DNA of 64,000 nucleotides from contig NZ_JAAVSY010000003.1 of assembly GCF_012102745.1 (NCBI RefSeq), positions 124,001-188,000 on the forward strand. Direction: 5' to 3'. The position numbers and the translations under genes were made by a program. Under the pieces are notes generated by a model. That model did no database searches. It saw only the letters and a list, made by a program, of their open reading frames with translations, and was not told the DNA's origin. Of the stretch, positions 15,954 through 56,317 are shown in pieces. This DNA comes from Haematospirillum sp. H4485 (lineage in GTDB: Bacteria; Pseudomonadota; Alphaproteobacteria; Rhodospirillales; Rhodospirillaceae). Each line of letters starts with the position of its first letter. Within the stretch, counting starts at the first letter, position 1.

Positions 15954-17789
15954 ATGCTTGATATGCCAACGTTATGGGTGTCGATGGTGGCTATATCCAC
16001 CCTGATGGCAGTAACGACCGGCATGATGGCCTTCGCGCCAGGATGGCGTCCTATTATGGCGCCTTTATGCCTTTCCCAGATACTCAAGGCATTGGGCAGT
16101 TTTCTGCTTGCCCTGCGTGGATCTGCTGGGGACTGGTTGTCTGTCATTGTCGCCAATATCTTTTTGTTGGTGGTTATCGCGCTGTCTCTTGTCGTGGTCG
16201 ATCGTCTCAGTGGTGTGCGCCGTTCACCTCGGGTTACATGGGCGTCGGTACTGGGTGTGGTTGTTTTCGCCTGCCTGATTACTTGGTTCACGATTGTAGA
16301 TCCCAGCTTGCCGGTACGTATGGTTCTTATGGGAATCTTTGCTGCTTTTTTCTGTTGGGTTGCAGCATGGAGGATGTTTTCATCCGTCGAAGGTGAAGCG
16401 GGCACGGTTGGTGCCATTATTCTTTTCTTCTTGGGTGTGGCCATGGGCAGCCGCGGGATGTATGGAGTTTCCCTGCCGCCTGGTATTGATTTTCTACAGC
16501 TTGGGAACGTCAATTCCGTAACCATTCTTGTCGCGGAAATGCTGCAGTATGCTGCAATTGTTGCCTTCAGCTGGGTTATGACCAGCCGCTGGCAGGCGAC
16601 TGCCGTGGCGGCGGCCCGTGCGGGGGCAAAGGCAGAGCGTGCGCGCGAAGAGGCGGACGTCCGTTTCCAGGCTGTTTTCCGCCAAGCTGCTGTTGGTATT
16701 GCCCTGATGGATCTTGATGGTCGCATTATTGTAGCCAACGATGCGTTTGTCCGCCTGTTTGGGTATGACGCCTCTGATCCTGTTGTGGGTCTTTCATGCC
16801 ATGATTTTTCTGTCTCCGAAGATATACAGGCCGAGCGGGATGTCATTGCCTCCATGCTCAGGGGCGAATGTACAGTCAGCCATGTTGAGAAACGCGGCCT
16901 GCATCGTTCCGGCCAGGTTATCTGGGTTGACCGTATGTTGGCCATGGTATGTCGTGCGGGTGGCGATCCGGTCAGTCTTGTTATGTCTGTTGTTGATGTG
17001 ACGGAGCGACGTCATGCTCAGGCTGCCTTGGTCGAGGAACGTGCTGCTCTGCGCTGTAGTAACAAGGATCTGGAACAGATTATAGCCCTTGTATCCAGCC
17101 ATATCAGAGGCCCGGCTCGCTCCATATCCGGCTATCTTGGTCTGTTGGAGCGCCGTATAGAATCGCTTCTGGGTGAGGGAGAGCGTGAGTATCTGCGTTT
17201 GGCATCGGAGGGTGCATTATGTATAGACCGGTCCCTTGAGGGCCTTCTGGACTACATATCCCTGACACGTGTTCAGGCGCACACGGATCAGGTCTCTGTC
17301 ATGGATGTTATCAACGATGTCTTTGATGCTCTCCGGGGGCAGATTGAAGCTGTCGGCGCCTTGGTGCGGGTCATCGGTACGGACGCCGATGTGCGTTGTA
17401 ACCGTGACATGTTGTGCCGGGTTTTTGGTAATCTTCTTGATAATGCATTGAAGTACAAGAAAGAAGGACACGCACCGGAGATGCGCTTTTCTGTATGCCG
17501 CACAGAACAGGGAGTGGAGGTATCGATTGCTGATAACGGCATTGGTATTCCGGATGATGTGCAGGTCAATCTTTTTGATTTTCAGCCGGGTTCCAGTTCC
17601 GTGACAGAATGCGGACGACGTGGCATTGGGCTGGCTGTCAGTCGCAAGATTGTCGAGAGTTTCGGCGGTAGCATCCGTGTTTCGTCAGCTATAGGACGAG
17701 GCTCGACGTTTGTTGTCTTCTTGCCATTGACGGTATGTGACGACAAGTCAAGGGCAGCGGCTGTTTACGAAGCCGTAGCGACAGCCTGA
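15954..17789 (+). CDS. PAS-domain sensor histidine kinase with multi-helix membrane domain
   Basis: A 611-residue kinase. The first 200 residues form six to seven membrane helices (for example ISTLMAVTTGMMAF, VIVANIFLLVVIALSLVVV, GIFAAFFCWVAAW) as in membrane-integral sensor domains. A short coiled coil (AAARAGAKAERAREEAD) leads to a PAS domain (about 225-345), then a phosphoacceptor helix with H383 in SSHIRGPARS, an N box (FGNLLDNALKYK) and G boxes (DNGIGIP, RRGIGLAVS). The HIRGPARSI motif is the HATPase family variant found in phytochrome-like kinases. ATG 15954 has GGGGGGAACGGA upstream; ATG 15927 is an alternative. No response regulator is adjacent, so it is an orphan kinase. It is divergent from nrtR. 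Confidence 0.87.
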   Translation: MLDMPTLWVSMVAISTLMAVTTGMMAFAPGWRPIMAPLCLSQILKALGSFLLALRGSAGDWLSVIVANIFLLVVIALSLVVVDRLSGVRRSPRVTWASVLGVVVFACLITWFTIVDPSLPVRMVLMGIFAAFFCWVAAWRMFSSVEGEAGTVGAIILFFLGVAMGSRGMYGVSLPPGIDFLQLGNVNSVTILVAEMLQYAAIVAFSWVMTSRWQATAVAAARAGAKAERAREEADVRFQAVFRQAAVGIALMDLDGRIIVANDAFVRLFGYDASDPVVGLSCHDFSVSEDIQAERDVIASMLRGECTVSHVEKRGLHRSGQVIWVDRMLAMVCRAGGDPVSLVMSVVDVTERRHAQAALVEERAALRCSNKDLEQIIALVSSHIRGPARSISGYLGLLERRIESLLGEGEREYLRLASEGALCIDRSLEGLLDYISLTRVQAHTDQVSVMDVINDVFDALRGQIEAVGALVRVIGTDADVRCNRDMLCRVFGNLLDNALKYKKEGHAPEMRFSVCRTEQGVEVSIADNGIGIPDDVQVNLFDFQPGSSSVTECGRRGIGLAVSRKIVESFGGSIRVSSAIGRGSTFVVFLPLTVCDDKSRAAAVYEAVATA

Positions 17790-17824
17790 CCGGTTTTTTG
17801 TGGTACCGGTCAGGCTGTCTTTTT
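17780..17824 (+). terminator. Strong intrinsic terminator overlapping the kinase stop codon
   Basis: GACAGCCTGACCGGT (17780-17794) pairs perfectly with ACCGGTCAGGCTGTC (17805-17819) across a 10-nt loop and is followed by TTTTT (17820-17824). The stop codon TGA (17787-17789) sits within the 5' arm, so terminating ribosomes cover part of the stem. It also separates this gene from htpG, whose stop is 4 nt further on the other strand. Confidence 0.93.
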
Positions 17825-34574: not shown

Positions 34575-35351
34575 ATGAAGAGAAATGGTTTCCACCATTG
34601 GAAGTGGATCCGGGATATTCTGACGGTTTTGCTGCTGTCCTTGCTGTCCAAGGAATCTCTTGCTGCTTCTGATGTTTTGGTTGTTGCCAGTCTGGAGCAT
34701 TATCCCCCTTATTCAGATCATGACCTGAAGGAACAGGGTTTCTGCCCCGATGTGACCAAAACGGCACTGGAGAGAGCCGGATACAAGGTTGAAATACGGC
34801 TTATGGATTGGCGCAAGGTTCTGGAGAGTGCGTCCAGCGGGGAGGCTGATGTCATTACCTGTTCTTGGTATGTGCCGTCGCGGGAGAGTTTTCTGATTTT
34901 TACACGTCTCCTGCATGCAAACCGTTTGGTTTTTGCTGTATCGAAGATGGATTCCTTTGAATATACGCGGCTGGAGGATCTGAAGGGAAAGAAGGTGGGG
35001 GTTGTTGCCGGTTATGGTTATCCCCCTGATTTTCTTGATGCGCCCTATATCCAGAGAGTCGTCGGGCCATCTGTAGAGGACAATATTCGTGCTGTTGCCA
35101 CGGGTGGGCTTGATGCGACGCTGGATGATGAAGGGCTGATGCGCAGCCAGTTGCGCCGCTCTTTGTCCGCGTTGGCCGGAGATATTCGTCTGACCCGGGG
35201 CGCTATCCACGAAACGCCCTTGGTTGCTGGCGTTTCGCGCCATCGCGCTGATGCGGCTGAAATTGTTGAACGGTTTAATGCAGCCTTGGTTGTGATGGCG
35301 GGTGACGGTACCCTCAAGGACCTGCGACGGCGGCATGACCTTATTGAGTAG
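34575..35351 (+). CDS. Second orphan periplasmic substrate-binding protein, SBP_bac_3 type
   Basis: A 258-residue protein with a signal peptide (about 1-31, ILTVLLLSLLSKESLAA) and the family-3 pattern: ASLEHYPPYSDHDLKEQGF at the mature start, SGEADVITCSWYVPSRESFLIFT in the first lobe, and LKGKKVGVVAGYGYPPDF at the second. GGGGGTGGGG precedes ATG 34575. No transporter membrane or ATPase gene is next to it. It resembles in class, but not closely in sequence, the protein at 21.7 kb. The ligand is unknown; the acidic/aromatic pocket residues fit an amino acid-like solute. Confidence 0.84.
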   Translation: MKRNGFHHWKWIRDILTVLLLSLLSKESLAASDVLVVASLEHYPPYSDHDLKEQGFCPDVTKTALERAGYKVEIRLMDWRKVLESASSGEADVITCSWYVPSRESFLIFTRLLHANRLVFAVSKMDSFEYTRLEDLKGKKVGVVAGYGYPPDFLDAPYIQRVVGPSVEDNIRAVATGGLDATLDDEGLMRSQLRRSLSALAGDIRLTRGAIHETPLVAGVSRHRADAAEIVERFNAALVVMAGDGTLKDLRRRHDLIE

Positions 35352-35429: not shown

Positions 35430-35726
35430 ATGACTGATACTGTCCCTGAATCTCCCAAGGGGGATCCTATAGTGAATCTTGTGTTGTCCATGGCTGCTGA
35501 TGCCGGTGTGCGTGGCGTCAGTGCACAAGAAATTGCCAAGGTATATTTCTCCCAGCGTCGCCGCCCAAAGGATCCTGATGATGGTTGGCGCCGTTTTATG
35601 AATCCGGTTAAACAGCAGGTGCTCAGCTTGGCGCGCAGTGGGCGCATTGAGATTGTTCGTGGGGGTGAGGTACAAGATCCAAACGATTTCAGGGGTCTTG
35701 TCCGCGTGCGTTTGCCTAGGGAATGA
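35430..35726 (+). CDS. DUF3253-type small winged-helix-like protein
   Basis: A 98-residue protein. Residues ending in DPNDFRGLVRVRLPR match the C-terminal VDP-x(3)-RG-x-IR-R signature I associate with DUF3253, and the body (VSAQEIAKVYFSQRR, WRRFMNPVKQQVLSLARSGRIEIVRGG) has the helix-turn-helix-wing layout of that family. Function is not known. ATG 35430 gives the conventional length; ATG 35415 is an alternative. It is followed by an inverted-repeat-rich gap. Confidence 0.72.
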   Translation: MTDTVPESPKGDPIVNLVLSMAADAGVRGVSAQEIAKVYFSQRRRPKDPDDGWRRFMNPVKQQVLSLARSGRIEIVRGGEVQDPNDFRGLVRVRLPRE

Positions 35727-35737
35727 CAGGTAACCCT

Positions 35738-35804
35738 GTAATGCTCTGTTGTTAGAAAAAGGAGCTCCGCATAAGCGGGGCCTGAGTGAACAGGGAGGCA
35801 TTAC
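35738..35804 (+). repeat. Nested inverted repeats (candidate structured RNA)
   Basis: Outer arms GTAATGC (35738-35744) and GCATTAC (35798-35804) enclose CTGTT (35746-35750) / AACAG (35789-35793), which enclose GCTCCGC-ATAA-GCGGGGC (35764-35781). The single imperfect pair is U:G when read as plus-strand RNA, which favours a plus-strand transcript, possibly the 3' untranslated region of the DUF3253 gene. Confidence 0.5.
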
Positions 35805-35849
35805 GTCCGATGATAGACGCTGGATAAAAACCGCCAGGCGGACCCGGCG

Positions 35850-35920
35850 CTGGTGTAGGAATAACTTGGGGTTACTCCCGCACCAGTCCTGCTGTTCGTG
35901 TGGGTGAACAGCAGGACTGG
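35850..35920. repeat. Two overlapping, mutually exclusive hairpins
   Basis: Hairpin 1: CTGGTG (35850-35855) with CACCAG (35881-35886), extended inside by GGAATAAC (35858-35865) and GTTACTCC (35871-35878). Hairpin 2: CCAGTCCTGCTGTTC (35883-35897) with GAACAGCAGGACTGG (35906-35920), a perfect 15-bp stem with an 8-nt loop. They share CCAG (35883-35886), so both cannot form at once. Neither has a T run. Hairpin 2 lies 88 nt beyond the stop of the minus-strand LysR gene and could end that transcript. Confidence 0.6.
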
Positions 35921-36008
35921 AAGTGTAGGCGGCGGCGGGAAAACACACCAAAGCAAAAGATCTGTTGCTGCCATGCGCTCTGCGCATGCTTCGTGTGTGT
36001 CGTGATTG

Positions 36009-36905
36009 TCAGGGAGCCGGCGTGTTGTCTTTCTGGAGCTTCTGGAGAAGAAAGTCCCTGAAGACCATGACGCGCTTTGAGTGACGAAGCTCTTCCGGAT
36101 ATACAAAGTAACAGTCAAAACTTGGTCCACGCAATTCAGGAAGCACTTGTACCAAGTTAGATGCGACTGAGGCAAAATAATCTGGAAGAGCTGCAATGCC
36201 CAAGCCGGAGTGCACGGCGCGATAAATTCCGTAAATGTTGTTGATGCGCAGAACTGCAGAGCGAGGCGTTGTCGTTCCGGCAGACAAAAGCCAGTTCATG
36301 TTGTCAACTGGTGCCTTTGAATCATCACCATACGTGATAAGCCGGTGATTGTCGAGATCCGCCGGTGTTTTGGGTGTGCCATGTTTCTGCAGGTATTCTG
36401 GTGCAGCATAGACATTGTAATGCAGGTTGATCAGATGCCTTTGGATCAAATCCGGCTGGCGGGGGGCGTTGAAGCGGATGGCAACATCTGCGGCGCGCAT
36501 GGCCAGATCCACTTCCTGATCATCAAGCAGAAGCGATATCTCTATGCTGGGGTATTGCTCCATAAAATCGGTAATGCGGGGAGTCAGCCATACGGACCCG
36601 AAAGCAACTGTCGTTGTAACCTTCAGCAAGCCTTCAGGGCGTTCCCTGCTCTCGGTTATCCGTGCTTCAACCATTGACAGGCGTGCAAACACCTCGTGCA
36701 CGGTATGATACAGAAGCTCGCCTTGCTCGGTCAGGATCAGGCCACGGGCGTGGCGATGAAACAGGGAGACCCGCAGGCTTTCTTCCAGGGCACTGATCTG
36801 TCGGCTGACGGCAGACTGACTCAGGTGCAGCACATCTCCTGCATGGGTAAAGCTACCAGCCTCTGCGACGGTGTGAAAAACACGCAGTTTATCCCAGTCC
36901 ATCAT
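36009..36905 (-). CDS. LysR-family transcriptional regulator
   Basis: About 298 residues. The N-terminal winged helix is typical (WDKLRVFHTVAEAGSFTHAG, LSQSAVSRQISALEE), followed by a LysR effector domain (about 90-295) with KVTTTVAFGSVWLTPRI and AVHSGLGIAALPDY. Three starts are possible: ATG 36926 with GAGAG upstream, and ATG 36905 or 36902 with AGGG upstream; the family usually starts at MDWDKL. It lies downstream of trxB on the same strand with 126 bp between them. Its target genes are unknown. Confidence 0.88.
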   Translation of the reverse strand: MMDWDKLRVFHTVAEAGSFTHAGDVLHLSQSAVSRQISALEESLRVSLFHRHARGLILTEQGELLYHTVHEVFARLSMVEARITESRERPEGLLKVTTTVAFGSVWLTPRITDFMEQYPSIEISLLLDDQEVDLAMRAADVAIRFNAPRQPDLIQRHLINLHYNVYAAPEYLQKHGTPKTPADLDNHRLITYGDDSKAPVDNMNWLLSAGTTTPRSAVLRINNIYGIYRAVHSGLGIAALPDYFASVASNLVQVLPELRGPSFDCYFVYPEELRHSKRVMVFRDFLLQKLQKDNTPAP

Positions 36906-37031
36906 GGTGCCCTGTCGCCCGGCCATAATTCTCTCGTTTTCTTCAAATTTTGTTCTATTCCAAGGGTACCGGTACCAAGCCCGGGCTGGCAAGGTGGTGT
37001 CGGGAAGAAGTCCTTACCAGCCCGATCTTTC

Positions 37032-37979
37032 CTAGATATCGTCGTCTGTCCGCAGGAAACGATCAGCTTCAAGCGCGGCCATGCAACCGGTTCCCGCAGC
37101 GGTTATAGCCTGGCGGAACACATGATCCTGCACATCGCCAGCAGCAAAAACGCCCGGGATCGAGGTTGCAGTCGAGTCCGGCTGCGTAATCAAATAGCCG
37201 TTCTCGTCGGTTTGAAGCTGACCGATAAATAGGTCCGTATTGGGTTTATGGCCGATGGCAATGAACACGCCGTCACAGGCAAGATCAGAAAGGGCCCCCG
37301 TTATTGTATCTTCCAGGCGGATGCCGGTTACACCCTCGGGATTACCTCCGCCCAGGATCTCATGGACCTTGCTGTTCCAGCGTACTGTGATTTTGGGGTT
37401 TCGCAGCAGGCGGTCCTGCAGTATTTTCTCGGCCCGGAAACTGTCGCGGCGGTGTACAACGGTGACGCTGGCGCAGATATTTGCCAGATACAGGGCTTCT
37501 TCTACAGCACTGTTGCCGCCACCAACGACGACGACATTCTTTCCACGGAAGAAGAAGCCATCACACGTCGCGCAGGCAGACACGCCAAGGCCGGCGTATT
37601 TCTTTTCGCTTGGTATGTCCAACCATTTGGCAGAGGCCCCGGTTGCGATAATCAGTGTATCGCTTTTCCATACGTCGCCGCCGTCGGTGCGAACCGTAAA
37701 TGGGCGCCGGGACAGATCAACGGATGTCGCCATATCGTGCACGATGCGGGCACCGCAATGTTCAGCCTGTTGGCGCATCTGTTCCATGAGCCAAGGCCCT
37801 TGGACTGGATCGGCAAAGCCCGGATAGTTTTCAACGTCTGTTGTTATGGTCAGCTGTCCGCCAGGTTGGAGTCCTGCCAGGACAACCGGTTCCAGATTGG
37901 CGCGGGCCGTGTAGATGGCGGCTGTACAACCAGCGGCTCCGGTGCCAAGGATGAGAACCCGGGTACGATGCTCAGTCAT
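37032..37979 (-). CDS. trxB: Thioredoxin-disulfide reductase
   Basis: A 315-residue flavoprotein. FAD site VLILGTGAAGCTAAIY at the N-terminus, redox pair C136-A-T-C139-D-G, NADPH site VVVGGGNSAVEEALY and C-terminal FAD contact GVFAAGDVQD are all present. It reduces thioredoxin with NADPH. ATG 37979 has GGAGG 11 nt upstream and fits the family start. The peroxiredoxin encoded just upstream is likely served by this thioredoxin system. Confidence 0.97.
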   Translation of the reverse strand: MTEHRTRVLILGTGAAGCTAAIYTARANLEPVVLAGLQPGGQLTITTDVENYPGFADPVQGPWLMEQMRQQAEHCGARIVHDMATSVDLSRRPFTVRTDGGDVWKSDTLIIATGASAKWLDIPSEKKYAGLGVSACATCDGFFFRGKNVVVVGGGNSAVEEALYLANICASVTVVHRRDSFRAEKILQDRLLRNPKITVRWNSKVHEILGGGNPEGVTGIRLEDTITGALSDLACDGVFIAIGHKPNTDLFIGQLQTDENGYLITQPDSTATSIPGVFAAGDVQDHVFRQAITAAGTGCMAALEADRFLRTDDDI

Positions 37980-38075
37980 ATGTAGAAAAACCTCCGGGCA
38001 GTGGTGTGTTTTCAATACGCAAGGGGGTTGCAGCAGGCTTGATCAGGGGCGAGGGAGTATTATTCCCCGATGTGC

Positions 38076-38135: not shown

Positions 38136-38759
38136 TTACAGGGCCTCAGCGTTCTCTTTCAGGAAGTTGGCCACGCCCTTGGGGCTTGCTTCCATACCCT
38201 TTTTGCCTTTTGTCCAGCCGGCGGGGCATACTTCCCCATGCTCTTCATGGAACTGCAGGGCATCAATCATCCGCAGTGCTTCATCAACGTTACGGCCCAA
38301 GGGCAGGTCGTTGATTGTGGCATGCCGGACCATGCCCGCCTTGTCGATCAGGAAAGAGCCGCGCAGGGCAACACCAGCATCTTCGATCAAGACACCAAAT
38401 GAACGGGCGATGTTCTTCTTGAGGTCGGCAACCAAGGGGAACTGTACATTCCCAAGTCCGCCTTCGTTTTGCGGTGTATTTTTCCAGGCCAGATGAGAAA
38501 ACTGGCTGTCAACAGAAATGCCTATGACTTTTGTATTGGCTGCTGTGAACTGCTGGAGACGATGGTCGTGCGCAATAATTTCCGAAGGACAAACAAAAGT
38601 GAAATCCAGAGGGTAGAAGAATACCCAGCCATAGGATCCGTGCAAGTAGCTTTTCAAGTTGAACTGAGCATTGATGCTGTTGTCGGGCATAACAGCCTGA
38701 GCGGTAAAATCCGAGACAGGCTTGCCAACAAGGGTTCCAACGTGTGCAAAATCAGTCAT
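38136..38759 (-). CDS. Typical 2-Cys peroxiredoxin (AhpC/Prx1 type)
   Basis: A 207-residue thiol peroxidase. Peroxidatic C57 lies in DFTFVCPSEI and resolving C178 in GEVCPAGW. A GGLG motif is present (about 100-103), but the C-terminal YF motif of oxidation-sensitive eukaryotic-type enzymes is not seen, so it is probably robust against overoxidation. It reduces H2O2 and alkyl hydroperoxides. trxB follows downstream on the same strand but is separated by a terminator. No ahpF or oxyR is adjacent. Confidence 0.95.
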   Translation of the reverse strand: MTDFAHVGTLVGKPVSDFTAQAVMPDNSINAQFNLKSYLHGSYGWVFFYPLDFTFVCPSEIIAHDHRLQQFTAANTKVIGISVDSQFSHLAWKNTPQNEGGLGNVQFPLVADLKKNIARSFGVLIEDAGVALRGSFLIDKAGMVRHATINDLPLGRNVDEALRMIDALQFHEEHGEVCPAGWTKGKKGMEASPKGVANFLKENAEAL

Positions 38760-54997: not shown

Positions 54998-56185
54998 TTA
55001 ATCACCCATACGTTCCAGGATCAGGGCAATGCCCTGCCCGCCCCCGATACACATTGTTACCAAGGCATAACGCCCGTTGGTACGGTGCAGGGCGTGTATG
55101 GCTTTTATGACCAGTATGGCACCGGTTGCGCCAACAGGATGGCCCAAGGCAATAGCCCCGCCGTCCGGATTTACCTTCTCCGGGTCCAGGCCAAGCTTCC
55201 GGTTCACGGCACAGGCTTGTGCGGCGAATGCCTCGTTGGATTCAACCAAGTCCAGATCAGACACCGTAAGGCCGGCCCTTTTCAGGGCGATCATGCTGGC
55301 GGGAACCGGTCCTATTCCCATGATGGACGGATCGACCCCCGCGTGACCATAGCTGACAATCCGGGCCATGGGGGTGAGCTTGCGGGTCGAGGCTTCGCGC
55401 TCTGCCATCAGGACAAGGGCAGCCGCGCCGTCGTTGATGCCGGATGCATTTCCAGCGGTGACAGAGCCGTTCTCGCGAAAAATGGTCTTTAACTTTGCAA
55501 GACTGGCCGAAGTCGTCTCGGGACGAACATGCTCATCTGTATCGAACACGGTTTCCTTGCCCCGTGTTTTTATAGTTACGGGGGTAATTTGGCTTTTAAA
55601 GAAACCGGATGCGATGGCACGTGCTGCCCGACGGTGGCTTTCTGCGGCAAAGCCATCCTGTTCATCACGGCTGATCGAGTGTGCTGCCGCGACATTTTCT
55701 GCTGTTACCCCCATGTGGCCGTTGCCAAATGGATCTGTCAGAGCGCCTGTCATCATATCGACCATGGTGCTGTCGCCCATGCGGGCACCCCAGCGTGCAG
55801 TCGGCAGAATGTAGCTGCCCCGGCTCATCACCTCTGTGCCACCGGCAACAGCGATTTGGCAGTCACCCAGCATAATAAAGTGCGCTGCCGACAAGACCGC
55901 CTGCAGGCCTGATCCACACAGGCGATTGACGGTCATGGCCGGGACATGGTCCGGAATGCCGCCCTTGCAGGCAGCCACGCGGGAGACGTACATATCTCGC
56001 GGCTCAGTCGGGATAATATGCCCCATGACCACATGCCCGACATCTGTGGGTGCAATGGCCGTTCGTGTCAGGGCTTCCTTGATCACCAGTGCCCCAAGAT
56101 CGCATGGCGTCAAGTCCTTGAGCGAACCGCCAAAGGTACCAATCGCGGTTCGCGTTCCCCCCAGAATGACTACAGACTCAGCCAT
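54998..56185 (-). CDS. Acetyl-CoA acetyltransferase (beta-ketothiolase)
   Basis: A 395-residue thiolase with the complete catalytic set: C90 in NRLCGSGLQAV, H349 in AIALGHPVGATG and C379 in MCIGGGQG. Positions match biosynthetic PhaA/AtoB-type enzymes. It condenses two acetyl-CoA to acetoacetyl-CoA, or the reverse, and could feed polyhydroxybutyrate synthesis; residues do not separate PhaA from BktB-like chain-length preference. GGGAGGGAAAC precedes ATG 56185. No phaB or phaC is adjacent. Confidence 0.93.
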   Translation of the reverse strand: MAESVVILGGTRTAIGTFGGSLKDLTPCDLGALVIKEALTRTAIAPTDVGHVVMGHIIPTEPRDMYVSRVAACKGGIPDHVPAMTVNRLCGSGLQAVLSAAHFIMLGDCQIAVAGGTEVMSRGSYILPTARWGARMGDSTMVDMMTGALTDPFGNGHMGVTAENVAAAHSISRDEQDGFAAESHRRAARAIASGFFKSQITPVTIKTRGKETVFDTDEHVRPETTSASLAKLKTIFRENGSVTAGNASGINDGAAALVLMAEREASTRKLTPMARIVSYGHAGVDPSIMGIGPVPASMIALKRAGLTVSDLDLVESNEAFAAQACAVNRKLGLDPEKVNPDGGAIALGHPVGATGAILVIKAIHALHRTNGRYALVTMCIGGGQGIALILERMGD

Positions 56186-56317
56186 GTTTCCCTCCCTGTT
56201 CCCCGTGTCTGCGGTTTTCCCGGAAGGATATACACGCAGTGCTTGATCATGGGGCACTATGAAGGGATGGCACCAGTACGGCAACCAGCCTTTGTATAGC
56301 GCGTGATCTTGAACCGC

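Follow-up and report, generated by a model that had tools for sequence, protein, structure and literature searches.

A predicted VtlR-linked, AbcR-like small RNA gene in an inverted-repeat-rich gap of Haematospirillum

The gap between two convergent genes of Haematospirillum sp. H4485 is unusually rich in inverted repeats, which raises the question of whether it encodes a structured RNA and, if so, of which kind. In the window (the whole stretch of 64,000 nucleotides that was analysed), this gap spans positions 35727-36008, with a DUF3253 gene (+ strand, ending at 35726) and a LysR gene (- strand, ending at 36009) converging on it. All the inverted repeats of the original prediction were found again where it had placed them:

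35883-35897/35906-35920: perfect inverted repeat, 15 bp, 100% complementary, 8-nt loop
35850-35865/35871-35886: imperfect inverted repeat, 81% complementary
35738-35744/35798-35804: nested stem GTAATGC/GCATTAC, enclosing a G+C stem
35972-35988: CATGCGC dyad

These repeats are genuine and greatly exceed what chance would produce. The window has two perfect hairpins of 15 bp, one of which is 35883-35920 (the other, with a 10-nt loop, lies at 17780-17819), and five dinucleotide-matched random sequences of 64 kb had no perfect hairpin of at least 11 bp. The gap folds better than 200 of 200 shuffles on either strand, the signal being stronger on the minus strand (z = -6.1) than on the plus strand (z = -4.5). 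It could have been a repeated element, a possibility ruled out by its single copy in its own genome. Very probably, in our view, the minus strand of the gap encodes a trans-acting small RNA (sRNA) that is VtlR-linked and AbcR-like. From sequence comparison, this predicted sRNA belongs to a class-wide, VtlR-linked family that is absent from Rfam 15 and would be AbcR-like in its working.

The regulator and the 3' module

The genes upstream of the gap on the minus strand are the following:

36009..36914 (-): LysR regulator, VtlR/LsrB orthologue; the start codon may be slightly further upstream
37032..38015 (-): thioredoxin reductase gene trxB, preceding vtlR (TIGR01292, 399.5 bits, cut-off 343)

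In the PDB, the LysR protein is best matched by 9HH1 (E = 2.7e-99; next chain, 6.8e-34), which is LsrB from A. tumefaciens solved by cryo-EM, and there is a single match to the protein at E <= 1e-60 in its own genome. The LysR of Haematospirillum sp. H1815, the nearest named relative, is 99% identical to it. In A. tumefaciens the gene order is trxB, vtlR and then the sRNA genes abcR1/abcR2 (PMC7486931), and in S. meliloti abcR1/2 adjoin lsrB (PMC3712013); the window locus, like those of AbcR, lies downstream of trxB-vtlR/lsrB. A family 3 solute-binding protein gene (34575-35351) and a peroxiredoxin gene (38136-38759) are also found near vtlR and trxB, neighbours that would suit the known uptake and redox functions of the AbcR/LsrB circuit.

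The end of the gap that is distal to vtlR carries a three-part module:

35803..35820 (-): hairpin GCGUCUAUCAUCGGACGU, corresponding to the nearly invariant ACGUCUCCCAGACGU; anti-Shine-Dalgarno CUCCCA lost in the window
35787..35799 (-): anti-Shine-Dalgarno linker GCCUCCCUGUUCA
35756..35782 (-): Rho-independent terminator, weakened by a C-A mismatch and a run of only five U (U5)

The gaps that follow the same LysR gene in Novispirillum and others have ACGTCTCCCAGACGTGAAGCCTCCCTGTT in common, followed by a terminator. The alignment of 43 such modules shows a hairpin, then an invariant CCTCCCTG linker, then the terminator; CCUCCCUG is invariant across all 43 homologues, and some pairs of the terminator stem are changed on both sides. 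The pattern CCTCCCTGTT followed by a T-run occurs in 168 of the 248 genomes of the sampled order, the reversed control patterns being near zero. When 30 loci were picked by the LysR protein alone, 27 had the module (with at most one mismatch) within 1.5 kb downstream of vtlR. A covariance model, R1, was built from the module alignment; as this alignment includes the window copy, the one strong match of R1 in its own genome (41.8 bits; next, 15.3 bits) is to a sequence it was built with. Across the class, R1 matches 88 of 142 genomes at E <= 0.01, and its best 30 class-wide loci, picked by the RNA alone, come almost without exception from different families; at 23 of these loci a VtlR orthologue precedes the RNA in the same orientation.

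Several lineages carry two sRNA copies in tandem downstream of vtlR. Such pairs, which resemble abcR1/abcR2, occur at loci L057, L059, L064, L066 and L067 and at L060-L063, L065, L068, L070 and L074; in one lineage the second copy is CCTCCCTGAT, with TATCTT as its -10 element. A second sRNA type, not adjoining vtlR, was observed at L032-L035, L046 and L047, with the module at about position 1501 or 942. It has the common CCTCCCTGTT-terminator end and a different upstream part (TTAAGATGTC...GTGGATGAG...CATCATCCA...TTCGACG), and is apparently a paralogous family with a common 3' module.

The window copy is a divergent member: its hairpin has UAUCAU at the position where most homologues in the 43-module alignment keep CUCCCA, and its terminator is weak. 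The RNA may consequently be of lower stability, terminate early in part, or be undergoing decay. In the extreme case the copy would be a non-functional relic of the family, as the lost hairpin anti-Shine-Dalgarno and the contrast between its mismatched terminator with U5 and the perfect 7-bp G+C stem with U9 of H1815 might suggest. Nevertheless, the operator dyad described below is perfect, as is the 5' stem-loop, the linker is intact, and the gap is 89% identical over its full length in a same-genus genome (G001, a sister species), all of which makes a relic rather unlikely.

Just past the terminator (window 35738-35804), the minus strand carries AACAGAGCATTAC, complementary to the linker region (GTAATGC..CTGTT). 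This sequence is found in both Haematospirillum species and, in a read-through RNA, would mask the linker. As a functional element, the pairing (the GTAATGC/GCATTAC nested stem listed above) was rejected: 7-nt matches are similarly frequent in shuffles and it does not occur family-wide.

Promoter, operator and predicted transcript

Between vtlR and the module lie the elements of a promoter:

35973..35987 (-): LysR-type operator dyad ATGCG-N5-CGCAT (T-N11-A), perfect in the window
35964..35976 (-): VtlR/LsrB half-site-like box GCATGGCAGCAAC, with 5 of the 7 positions of GCAT-N3-TG-N3-T
35946..35958 (-): conserved stretch TTTTGCTTTGGTG of the promoter (-35 region)
35922..35927 (-): -10 element TACACT, separated from the box by the conserved 49 nt

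The CATGCGC/GCGCATG pair, previously described as a further hairpin, lies upstream of the predicted start and is not an RNA structure but a conserved operator dyad: of the 77 homologous upstream regions, 75 contain it with at most two mismatches, as against 188 of 1540 shuffles (12%). The box GCATGGCAGCAAC overlaps this dyad, and from its start to the downstream -10 element the distance is exactly 49 nt. In the PabcR1 promoter of S. meliloti, the VtlR/LsrB box GCAT-N3-TG-N3-T occupies -61 to -49 (PMC8844928), and the window family has its box in that place, with strong evidence at the family level. At the 49-nt spacing, 18 of 54 family copies score at least 12 of 13; each of the remaining spacings between 38 and 61 gives zero to two such copies. 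Taken alone, the window box at this spacing is marginal (P about 0.05), combining 5 of 7 positions with the exact spacing and the perfect dyad. When the promoters are aligned, TTTTGCTTTGGTG corresponds to TTTTGCTGTGGTG in Novispirillum and to TTTTGCCGTGGCG in Insolitispirillum, and in the latter GCATGGCAG and TATCAC are likewise separated by 49 nt. Most ar15/AbcR loci that adjoin vtlR in Rhizobiales share this box and its spacing. The sRNA of Caenispirillum is located away from vtlR, yet it keeps the box at the right spacing, which favors regulation over mere adjacency. Both the operator and the synteny suggest that VtlR would activate the window sRNA.

Two other readings of the gap are to be weighed against this promoter. 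Since the sRNA lies on the vtlR strand, immediately downstream of the gene, it could be derived from the 3' UTR of the vtlR mRNA through cleavage by RNase E, in the manner in which SorX is cut from the ompR-1 mRNA in Rhodobacter (PMC8625941); moreover, the SorX model scores slightly under its cut-off in homologues (40.2 of 46.6 bits). Such an origin seems very improbable, as the sRNA has a conserved promoter of its own which is kept in unlinked copies, and a terminator-like hairpin separates vtlR from the sRNA in Novispirillum. Alternatively, the gap could hold merely the 3' ends of the two genes, that is, bidirectional terminators, which would agree with their convergence and with the terminator-like hairpins of the minus strand. 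We give this reading a very low probability: the promoter and operator between vtlR and the module are conserved, so is the anti-Shine-Dalgarno linker, and relatives have tandem and unlinked copies under the same promoter.

The elements of the sRNA gene upstream of its 3' module can then be described, the start site near 35915 being predicted from the position of the -10 element:

35756..35915 (-): predicted transcript of the sRNA gene, about 160 nt long, with its start placed by promoter geometry and its end at the terminator
35883..35920 (-): perfect inverted repeat of 15 bp; the 5' stem-loop of the RNA is made by its inner 10 bp (35888-35915)
35850..35886 (-): second stem-loop; the predicted fold has the 5' stem-loop too; also folds in H1815
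35826..35849 (-): internal, lineage-specific hairpin resembling a terminator, with U5 after it (U7 in H1815), as read from the sequence

The predicted length of 160 nt in the window is close to the median of 165 nt over 72 homologous predicted transcripts. After the predicted start, the 5' stem-loop is present in most relatives and covaries. The original prediction expected compensatory changes in homologous loci, and they occur both here and in the terminator: 67 cells of 47 aligned stem-loops are changed on both sides. Of 500 arm shuffles, none attains this count or the number of paired cells, although the relatedness of the aligned sequences means that the shuffle result is not a probability. 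The window stem-loop, which has a larger loop, is outside these 47. The suggestion that hairpins 35850-35886 and 35883-35920, which have four bases in common in the DNA, are mutually exclusive and form a conformational switch or riboswitch controlling a flanking gene is scarcely credible, because the predicted start at about 35915 excludes the outermost five base pairs of the 15-bp repeat on the 5' side and leaves the shared bases free, so that both hairpins fold together in the predicted transcript and the idea loses its basis, because the flanking genes are convergent and the gap is thus the leader of neither, and because the third hairpin is an operator.

Relation to known RNA families and predicted mechanism

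The earlier observation that the gap matches no nameable RNA family holds, since Rfam 15 has no gathering-level match there; nor does any of the 40 family loci tested reach the Rfam cut-offs. A structured RNA gene outside the named Rfam families is supported by sequence comparison, as a predicted gene. At a relaxed threshold the weak matches at the gap look like chance, with the exception of SorY (RF02651), which scores 16.5 of 111 bits and is located on the real 3' module. The relaxed matches to MIR6426 and CRISPR-DR29 were rejected, as hairpins of nearly any sequence score so.

The nearest Rfam families to the window family are SorX, SorY and suhB/MmgR. SorX (RF02784) and SorY from Rhodobacter sphaeroides are similarly made up of a hairpin, a CUCCCUGUU linker and a G+C-rich terminator, but all the family loci tested are below the curated cut-offs, the best SorX score being the one already given, in a homologue; SorX itself originates from the ompR-1 3' UTR (PMC8625941). 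MmgR/suhB (RF00519) gives a partial match of up to 29.3 bits, but this is below its 41-bit cut-off and the RNA is shorter; a partial homology of alpha-r15 to MmgR/suhB has also been reported (PMC7143759). The Rhizobiales family RFM SmelC671 has a single-stranded CUCCCUGU between variable hairpins, the last of which is the terminator (PMC3927594). Compared by this published description, it resembles the window family in its CUCCCUGU linker, and the two could be related. The literature search yielded no paper with CCUCCCUGUU, but the family may still be described elsewhere.

The likeness to AbcR1/AbcR2 (alpha-r15, RF02345) lies in the trxB-vtlR/lsrB-sRNA order, the VtlR box and its spacing, a similar length, the anti-Shine-Dalgarno sequences that most homologues have in both the hairpin and the pre-terminator linker, and the tandem copies of some lineages. 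Brucella AbcR carries CUCCCA (motif M1) as its hairpin motif and, in the linker, GUUCCC (PMC5461406); in most members of the window family the homologous hairpin carries the same CUCCCA. In contrast, the linker is GUUCCCCUC in AbcR and CCUCCCUGUU in the window family, the order of the hairpins is not alike, and the ar15 model is blind to the window sequence, finding nothing in the gap at E values up to 10 and no match in its own genome (cut-off 40 bits). When the ar15 search was run on 142 genomes of the class, the controls were silent, and a Rhizobiales-centred repeat was above the cut-off in 5 Rhizobiales genomes. The window copy has neither motif M1 in its hairpin nor the linker motif M2 (GUUCCC), its anti-Shine-Dalgarno linker being CCUCCCUGUU. 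Given the silence of the model and the absence of both motifs from the window copy, the sRNA is not classed as ar15.

The following mechanism may be proposed. VtlR, encoded just upstream, would bind between about -73 and -49, on the T-N11-A dyad and the half-site, and would activate a sigma-70 promoter that has a poor -35 element. Transcription would start near 35915 and end near 35756, and the resulting sRNA would expose the CCUCCCUGUU linker as a single-stranded anti-Shine-Dalgarno sequence. Where target mRNAs have a ribosome-binding site of the AGGGAGG type, pairing with this linker would block their translation, probably with Hfq. While position, conservation, operator, promoter spacing, the stem-loop covarying in relatives and the terminator are established by computation, we infer activation by VtlR, expression, Hfq binding and target repression.

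AbcR targets are mainly uptake and metabolic genes, and Hfq-dependent repression of transporter mRNAs is a criterion of the ar15/AbcR family. Start sites with ACAGGGAG followed by ATG number 13 in the Haematospirillum genome versus 3 in the control, but only three of the 13 precede credible long frames (ParA-like, CorA-like and thiolase, named by eye); with so few credible linker-complementary sites, no targets are claimed. The thiolase (acetyl-CoA acetyltransferase-like) gene at 55000-56199 (-), which has ACAGGGAGGGAAACATG, complementary to the sRNA linker, before its start, is a candidate.

Significance of the VtlR-linked family

AbcR sRNAs and their activator VtlR/LsrB are important for the virulence of Brucella and for the plant interactions of Agrobacterium and Sinorhizobium, and the AbcR literature consulted treats these sRNAs in Rhizobiales. 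It seems fairly probable that VtlR and an adjacent anti-Shine-Dalgarno sRNA make up an ancestral, class-wide unit, the window family and the Rhizobiales AbcR having both descended from the same promoter and locus or replaced each other there. If so, the unit would be a core post-transcriptional circuit of the Alphaproteobacteria, probably redox-linked, and a highly conserved RNA family, present in many other alphaproteobacterial families, would be missing from Rfam. The VtlR-linked family would then permit a direct test of how nearly the whole of an sRNA can change under a promoter and a regulator that remain fixed.
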